DNA of 53,151 nt, taken from positions 1 to 53,151 of the forward strand of contig CAJTCE010000027.1 in the NCBI GenBank assembly GCA_910574745.1. The letters are read 5' to 3'. Both the position numbers and the translations under genes were made by a program. The stretch comes from Lachnospiraceae bacterium (lineage in GTDB: Bacteria; Bacillota; Clostridia; Lachnospirales; Lachnospiraceae). Below the pieces are notes generated by a model. It saw nothing but the letters and a program-made list of their open reading frames with translations. It was not told the DNA's origin and did no database searches. The stretch's first letter is position 1, and each line of letters starts with the position of its first letter. This document shows positions 20,010-30,104 of the stretch, piece by piece.

Positions 20010-20175
20010 TTTGCATTTCCGGGAGCAACACTCTAAAGAGTGAAGCCGGATGGGTAAACGTGATTGTGGAGGGGATTTTGATCCTGGATGAATTATGCAG
20101 CAATAAAATTGTAGAAAGAACGATATGGAAGAAAGGATTTTTCGTGTCGGAAGAATTGGAAAGGAGGTAAGAAGG

Positions 20176-20439
20176 ATGCCCGATTTTGATGATGAAGTAG
20201 TAAAATGCTTTTTGGAAAAGCAGCTTAAGCTTTTTCCGGAGCCGGTAGCGGAAACTATGGAAGAGGCTCAGAATTTTCTGGAGGAATGCATGGCGGTTGT
20301 GGTAAATTCTCCCAAAGAGGTATGGGAATATTTCGATGAAGAAGGCGTCGATGTGGAAGGAATGGACGAGGAAGAGATTCTGGATGCGGATGAGGTCTTT
20401 GAGGTGGGGGATGGAAGGTATCTGATTGTGGAAGGATGA
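20176..20439 (+). CDS. Small acidic hypothetical protein
   Basis: An 87-residue, strongly acidic protein (Asp/Glu-rich, for example DVEGMDEEEILDADEVFEVG) with no membrane segment. I do not recognise a family. A strong AAAGGAGG box precedes the ATG at 20176, so the longer frame starting at 20125 is rejected. It ends 13 bases before the large fold-back element at 20453. Conserved helical sequence QKLF-like near residue 17 and a hydrophobic C-terminal strand suggest a folded protein. Function unknown. Confidence 0.65.
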   Translation: MPDFDDEVVKCFLEKQLKLFPEPVAETMEEAQNFLEECMAVVVNSPKEVWEYFDEEGVDVEGMDEEEILDADEVFEVGDGRYLIVEG

Positions 20440-20452
20440 GATTTAAAGGGGG

Positions 20453-20724
20453 ATTGGCGGGATATAACGTGCTTAGGGGGGACGGACTCCGGCTTAGAAG
20501 GGGCTTAGCTTTCAGATGCTTTCTGCAAAAGAATATATTTATTTCAGGAACGCGCTTGCGCTCCGGCAAAAGCGTAGCGGCACATAAGATTGCAAAGAAC
20601 GCAATCTAAATGCTGACGCTTTTGCAGGGTTCCTTCAATTAAATATATTTTTTGCAGAAAGCATCTGAAAGCTAAGCCCCTTTTAAGCCGGAGTTCGTCC
20701 CCCTAAGCACGTTATCCTGCCAAT
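20453..20724. mobile_element. 272-bp fold-back element, MITE-like
   Basis: ATTGGC at the left end and its complement at the right close an inverted repeat of about 95-100 bases per arm with only a handful of mismatches. The inner 75 bases continue to pair (GCAAAAGCGT with ACGCTTTTGC, AGATTGC with GCAATCT), leaving a loop of seven bases. Nearly the entire element is thus one long hairpin. It has no ORF of note. It looks like a non-autonomous transposon copy or a structured RNA gene. Confidence 0.75.
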
Positions 20725-29815: not shown

Positions 29816-29830
29816 GAAATAAGTACCTGC

Positions 29831-29869
29831 CAATAGAGAACAATAGAGAATAATAGAGAATAATAGAGA
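29831..29869. repeat. Four copies of a 10-bp tandem repeat
   Basis: AATAGAGAAC/T units follow each other directly, between the groEL stop codon and the terminator. Confidence 0.8.
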
Positions 29870-29920
29870 AGAGGATTTGGCTCGAACCCATTATGGCTTC
29901 GGTGGCAAATCCTCTTTTTT
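29870..29920 (+). terminator. Terminator of groESL
   Basis: AGAGGATTTG and its complement CAAATCCTCT enclose a 26-base loop and are followed by a T-run. A clear rho-independent terminator, though the loop is long. Confidence 0.85.
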
Positions 29921-30011
29921 AACTGGATATTATGGCAACACTTTTTTAGAGTAAAATAGGAAAGAAATCGCATTCCATTTGTGCAGAATCACGAAAAACG
30001 GCTTTTTCACA

Positions 30012-30040
30012 TTGAAAATTTGTGAAAAAAGTAGTAAAAT
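30012..30040 (+). promoter_or_regulatory. Promoter of the sortase gene
   Basis: TTGAAA, exactly 17 bases and TAAAAT lie about 65 bases before the sortase start. Confidence 0.65.
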
Positions 30041-30104
30041 ATATTTATCATGGATAGTTACACCCATGTTTTAAAAATATAAGCTGCGAAATGGATCTCG
30101 GAAT

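Follow-up and report, generated by a model that had tools for sequence, protein, structure and literature searches.

A long hairpin between convergent genes of a Lachnospiraceae bacterium: probable membership in a MITE-like family of palindromic insertions with a conserved folded core

The window analyzed here, a stretch of 53,151 nucleotides from a Lachnospiraceae bacterium, contains a segment that pairs with itself almost from end to end. What is a hairpin of this size: a mobile DNA copy, a structured RNA, or a palindrome that arose by chance? A preliminary description, made from the sequence alone, had proposed either a MITE-type mobile copy with ATTGGC ends or a structured RNA. We compared the segment with its own genome, its genus, its bacterial family, and a sample of its class. 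Genomes are designated by G numbers, G000 being the genome of the window, and loci by L numbers.

Results

Structure and position of the hairpin

The hairpin occupies positions 20453–20724 with exactly these limits (272 bp). Its folding energy, calculated over 301 nt, is −196.1 kcal/mol, whereas 100 dinucleotide shuffles give −84.5 ± 5.1 kcal/mol (z = −22), and none of the 100 reaches the value of the hairpin. The fold-back noticed in the preliminary description is therefore real, and its innermost loop of seven bases, AAAGAAC, is also as described. The left arm (89 nt) and the right arm (84 nt) align with 81 matches, three mismatches (all G·T), and three gaps. The idea of a single long stem does not hold, since the pairing is not continuous and the middle 99 nt form a separate conserved fold (Table 1).

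The hairpin lies between two convergent ORFs, 13 bp past the stop codon of a small acidic ORF (20125–20439), the distance reported before, and 102 bp ahead of the next (the ORFs used for gene context are mechanical calls). The ORFs that overlap it are all short, namely one of 57 aa (+) and parts of those of 104 aa (−) and 52 aa (−), in agreement with the earlier remark that it holds no ORF of note.

Table 1. Parts of the hairpin element in the window
Feature	Positions	Strand	Remarks
Left arm	20453–20541	+	Copy-specific sequence; AT-rich inner end AATATATTTA common among G000/G002 copies
Conserved folded core (99 nt), family-defining	20542–20640	+	Repeated across genome and family
Short one-sided hairpin of the core, GC-TTGC-GC, giving a three-way junction	20552–20563	+	From the consensus structure, with covariation in both pairs
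Conserved 2-nt bulge, AG, sometimes AA	20576–20577	+	Two alignments of copies
Conserved internal loop, 5' side RTAA	20584–20587	+	3' side TAA at 20607–20609
Terminal seven-base loop, AAANNAC in most copies	20594–20600	+	Folding and alignments
Right arm, inverted copy of the left arm	20641–20724	+	Self-complementarity and folding

Family size and distribution

BLAST against G000 finds six other places, with the matches confined to the core and inner arms. These matches span at most positions 76–226 of the 301-base query and stop short of both ends, so that ATTGGC does not mark the ends of the family; the unit repeated in this genome is the core and not the whole 272 bp. BLAST over the genus places the element in three of nine genomes. 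A covariance model built from 27 copies, with 150 candidates scored per genome, gives matches in seven of the nine: 11 places in G000, 12 each in G003 and G005, 16 in G008, 1 in G001, 18 in G002 (22 matches, four being the opposite strand of the same place), and 17 in G006 (18 matches, one of them opposite-strand; one place is a weak partial match). Thus, by both searches the element is not single-copy in its own genome.

The covariance model detects the core in 108 of 299 genomes of the bacterial family and in 107 of 298 genera, that is, at least a third of them; 11 candidates were scored per genome in this search, and the copy numbers it gives are lower bounds. All 11 positive genomes in a class sample of 391 belong to the same family, and none lies outside it. 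A pattern scan of named genomes yields at least 120 stretches; among the 80 titles listed, 57 are Lachnospiraceae, and the other or broader names include Acetatifactor, Kineothrix, Herbinix, and Clostridium, together with seven entries from one record titled Gastranaerophilales. The host family of the element, judged from these matches, is probably Lachnospiraceae. No match was found by BLAST among phages and plasmids, nor by one exact pattern among viral contigs. Among the open papers searched, none was recognized as describing the hairpin family, and a search of PMC3733652 for six clade names gave no occurrence of any of them.

Copies range in size from about 130 to 280 bp. At L182:3022–3519 (G133), three cores stand in tandem with a 187-bp period. 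At L172, L174, L178, and L180, the end of the contig is no more than about 60 bases away from an element copy, and short-read assemblies therefore probably break at such hairpins.

Conserved core

From the outside inward, the fold of the core consists of an outer helix, a short one-sided hairpin, a long helix carrying the AG bulge, an RTAA/TAA internal loop, and a last helix, which in most copies is capped by AAANNAC. The best conserved positions include several unpaired ones, and paired positions covary. An alignment of 75 copies shows two-sided change in 46 of 47 pairs, and 96.4% of its 3481 cells are paired, as against 65.1% when shuffled and at most 45.2% when slid; this alignment leans towards structure because it was fitted to the covariance model. 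A weaker measure, the number of further pair types, is reached by 10 of 500 shuffles. In the first alignment of the core, made with MAFFT, 39 of 47 pairs change on both sides.

Two variations of the core should be noted. The side hairpin of L025, L029, and L030 (G002, near 1490–1640) is extended by an additional CTCTTTAGAG-type stem. A variant on one side of the long stem, CGCCCACAT, recurs in the cores of L204, L210, L211, L213, L214, L215, and L226, where it disrupts pairing in several of the copies from G003/G005/G008 and looks as though it had spread between sites.

Arms that change together

The two arms of a copy match closely, whereas their sequence differs from site to site. Over 32 copies, 1775 of 1842 aligned arm positions match and 67 mismatch, as counted in local alignments with gaps left out and with L010 and L019 contributing almost no arm. 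Flank comparison identifies four orthologous pairs between G000 and G002 (L001/L016, L003/L022, L006/L012, and L007/L020). The substitution columns in their arms comprise 35 two-sided, 25 one-sided, and no other changes; the one-sided class is possibly undercounted, the arms having been delimited by their own complementarity. Since independent arms should give almost no two-sided columns, the arms evolve together. Non-orthologous arms in G000/G002 (19 of the 23 copies were used) exceed z = 4 in 19 of 167 comparisons. G189 copies share arms among themselves, as do G061 copies, and the ends differ between genera.

Divergence among G003, G005, and G008 (15 pairs from 13 orthologous sets) is 10.3% and 9.3% in the two arms, 4.2% in the core, and 7.1% and 5.4% in the flanks. 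The core thus changes more slowly than the arms; compared with the flanks, part of which may be coding, it is only slightly slower. Homogenization does not always win, because several copies in these genomes carry the stem-breaking variant.

Core inversion

The core is opposite in orientation to the flanks in 5 of the 13 orthologous sets of G003/G005/G008, namely L190 and L205 versus L220; L199 and L216 versus L222; L200 versus L212; L204 and L220b versus L213; and L209 versus L225. Divergence of the arms makes the L222 inversion less certain. Between L204 and L213, the arm halves are exchanged as well as the core.

Template switching between inverted repeats homogenizes arms and inverts spacers, according to the available part of PMC8604942. 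The homogenized arms and inverted spacers of quasipalindrome correction (PMC8604942; PMC7202029, both in the parts available) resemble what is found here. The repeats described in that part of PMC8604942 are short, with spacers of a few bases, whereas the arms here reach 89 nt, the center is about 100 nt, and dozens of loci are involved.

Pairing at the level of DNA or RNA

Paired RNA tolerates G·U far more than A·C. The mismatched cells of the 75-copy core alignment include 51 G·U and 48 A·C among the 3481, and a single column pair supplies 18 of the 51; without that pair the numbers are 33 and 48. The first core alignment gives 14 G·U versus 18 A·C, and the arms of the 32 copies give 27 G·U (G·T) versus 27 A·C. 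A tRNA control (3 G·U versus 1 A·C in 10 genes) is too small for use. The similar frequencies of G·U and A·C indicate that pairing is Watson–Crick on both strands alike, and the covariation, as far as sequence comparison goes, looks DNA-level. Fast correction by template switching could also erase G·U pairs, and the case for an RNA role is therefore weakened only.

Nothing in the window reaches the gathering score of an Rfam family. A loose Rfam search gives, for the window element, BTnc060 at 22.5 bits (gathering 228.9) and snoR24 at 16.8 bits (gathering 38), and, on the element copies of 20 family loci, only matches below gathering. One of the latter is to Clostridiales-1 RNA (RF01699) in L147 (24 bits versus 48), where the copy at L147:1416–1624 adjoins the 3' part of the match. 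This RNA resembles the element in being a long hairpin of bacteria of the same kind with a sub-threshold match beside a copy; however, its consensus is different, and the overlap at L147 is only 39 nt.

Filled and empty sites

The site in the window is filled in G000 and in G002, the latter with two hairpins. It is without the element in G003, G004, G005, G006, and G008, the five element-free genomes spanned among the eight other genomes of the genus (G001 and G007 are not spanned). The position is thus not conserved in all relatives; it is such conservation that the preliminary description would have taken as favoring an RNA. In place of the element, G003, G005, G006, and G008 show by eye a short hairpin resembling an intrinsic terminator, flanked by the same convergent genes.

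Two further sites are informative. At L217 the element is present in G005; in G003 it is missing and a single base separates the flanks, and in G008 half of it has been deleted. At L192 it is present in G008, whereas G003 has two bases between the flanks and no element, and G005 has a half-deleted copy. At L004, L008, L014, and L023, gain and loss are indistinguishable because the core-less sister (G000 or G002) keeps related or terminator-like hairpin sequence. One such site in the window is 29818–30074, downstream of a gene that we take, from its end, to be groEL-like; G002 has copy L014 there, and the window has a terminator-like hairpin instead.

Direct repeats are clearest in G189. Four copies of this genome compared pairwise are 93.6–99.6% identical across 277–359 bp, and a direct repeat of 8–9 bp is present at the ends in 11 of 15 readable copies (16 were fetched). 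Repeats of at least 8 bp appear in 4 of 210 cases when flanks of different copies are paired, and this control makes the evidence for target duplication stronger in G189. Copies of G061 are mostly 96–98% alike, with ends unlike those of G189. Elsewhere, direct repeats of at least 8 bp occur in 1 of 22 copies (G000/G002), 2 of 9 (G006), 2 of 40 (G003/G005/G008), and 2 of 25 (other genera), not clearly above chance. At the window copy, no flanking direct repeat reaches 7 bp. The right flanks of the G189 copies L373, L377, L381, L385, and L387 adjoin another repeated hairpin, of type GGAAAGTCCTCCGACTT.

Mobility is supported for the element family by dispersed copies, clean empty sites, and near-identical G189 copies with direct repeats; to this extent the MITE-type reading of the preliminary description stands. 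For the window copy we only infer it, because direct repeats are not clearly above chance outside G189.

Gene context and search for a partner gene

Among G000/G002 copies, 18 of 23 have the core co-oriented with a gene that ends within 60 bp upstream. This co-orientation is evidence against plain insertion, which does not predict such a bias. In G006, the genes around 7 of 9 copies are on the opposite strand. All 38 classifiable copies of G003/G005/G008 (40 were examined) lie between co-directional genes; these counts are not independent, as they come from 13 orthologous sets and some single copies. In Firmicutes, neighboring genes often run in the same direction.

No mobility gene was found among the clustered ORFs beside copies (349 ORFs; 813 ORFs of 120 loci; five cluster examples identified). 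The five examples identified with Pfam are ABC transporters (two), GGDEF/EAL, a short-chain dehydrogenase, and a histidine kinase. No transposase was seen at four G189 loci with the shared end, all in one genome; the ORFs beside two of these ends are FtsX-like and RecD2-like. A phmmer search with Escherichia coli RayT, a weak test, gives no match with E up to 1 among 7499 ORFs of the fetched loci.

Discussion

In our view, the window element probably belongs to a large family of palindromic DNA insertions of one bacterial family, which are MITE-like and non-autonomous. The entire hairpin would be inserted between genes by a transposase acting in trans; later, template switching by DNA polymerase inside the palindrome would copy one arm onto the other and sometimes flip the center, which would explain why the arms drift fast but together. 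The asymmetric unpaired features of the core would be kept by selection; the simplest reason would be that a protein must recognize the folded single strand, more likely as DNA than as RNA. Because a terminator-like hairpin occupies this place in four relatives, the element may also end transcription between the convergent genes of the window.

The terminator-like hairpins admit another explanation, in which only the core moves, inserting into the loop of pre-existing terminators; the arms would then be stretches of host terminator that template switching has lengthened. We regard this as unlikely, although several observations are in its favor: the hairpins of the four relatives at the window site and of the core-less relative at L014 and L023 (all by eye), the left arm of L023, which by eye resembles the stem plus loop of that hairpin while its right arm is the inverted copy, the stop codons close upstream of 18 of 23 G000/G002 copies, and the rarity of resemblance between non-orthologous arms. 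However, the arms are missing from the empty site at both G003/G005/G008 sites examined, indicating that they came with the insert, and the half-deleted copies there indicate that core-less remnants arise by deletion. A stem of the L023 type without a core is found only once in G000. The outer end is AGAAAAGGAT-like in 6 of 19 left arms (L003, L006, L012, L018, L022, and L023, with L003/L022 and L006/L012 as orthologous pairs), which would fit arms that moved together with the element, and arms are common to the G189 copies and to the G061 copies. An element selected as a transcript, whether a 3'-UTR element, a terminator, or a small RNA, is less probable still. Strong folding and covariation, the constant orientation that most G000/G002 copies show relative to the gene upstream, and the co-directional neighbors of every classifiable G003/G005/G008 copy agree with it, but the core strand has no G·U excess, the core is inverted at orthologous sites, most G006 copies lie among genes of opposite strand, and Rfam gives no match at gathering score in the window. 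The RNA alternative of the preliminary description has consequently lost ground.

A REP/REPIN-type element moved by a REP-associated HUH (Y1) transposase would likewise be a hairpin with many intergenic copies, and we consider it very improbable here. Canonical REPs are imperfect hairpins with GTAG at the 5' foot (PMC6006769, in the part available). The present elements, too, are imperfect intergenic hairpins, in many cases carry GTAG at the base of their inner hairpin, and are possibly read as a folded strand. The GTAG is not invariant, however: GCAG, ATAG, and GTAA are found where REP/REPIN elements would have GT[AG]G, and the first two bases are paired and covary with the opposite strand. 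The copies are about 130–280 bp long as against 20–40 for REPs (PMC3733652, available portion), and the weak phmmer test revealed no RAYT (TnpA-REP) match in the fetched loci. The direct repeats of 8–9 bp in G189 are also at odds with such a transposase, as they do not fit the Y1 mechanism. A chance palindrome, in favor of which we find no point, is refuted by the z value of −22 and the copies throughout the family.

The preferred reading, a MITE-like insertion, agrees with the short, gene-less, and palindromic nature of the element, with its multiple intergenically dispersed copies per genome, with filled and empty orthologous sites, and, in the genus of G189, with the direct repeats bordering the copies. 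MITEs usually keep their ends. Here, in reverse of the usual pattern, the center is conserved and the ends are variable, and the search found no autonomous partner.

A broader proposal, which we put forward tentatively as a possibility rather than an expectation, is a class of mobile palindromes defined by their center, in which a folded single-strand DNA core, with its side hairpin, AG bulge, RTAA/TAA internal loop, and AAANNAC loop, is the recognized signal and is kept in at least a third of the genera of the family, and the arms, possibly derived from the target, can be rewritten by template switching. If such a class exists, RNA-like covariation without a G·U excess would mark the evolution of DNA hairpins, and such elements could account for some of the "RNA motifs" detected through covariation. 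Two-sided covariation alone is no proof of a functional RNA, as 46 of 47 pairs covary here without an excess of G·U over A·C. The family is a natural record of apparent palindrome correction by template switching, with arms of up to 89 nt at many loci, and sister genomes allow arm conversions and core inversions to be read. Should a protein recognize the core, a large group of gut bacteria would possess a new mobility or chromosome factor.
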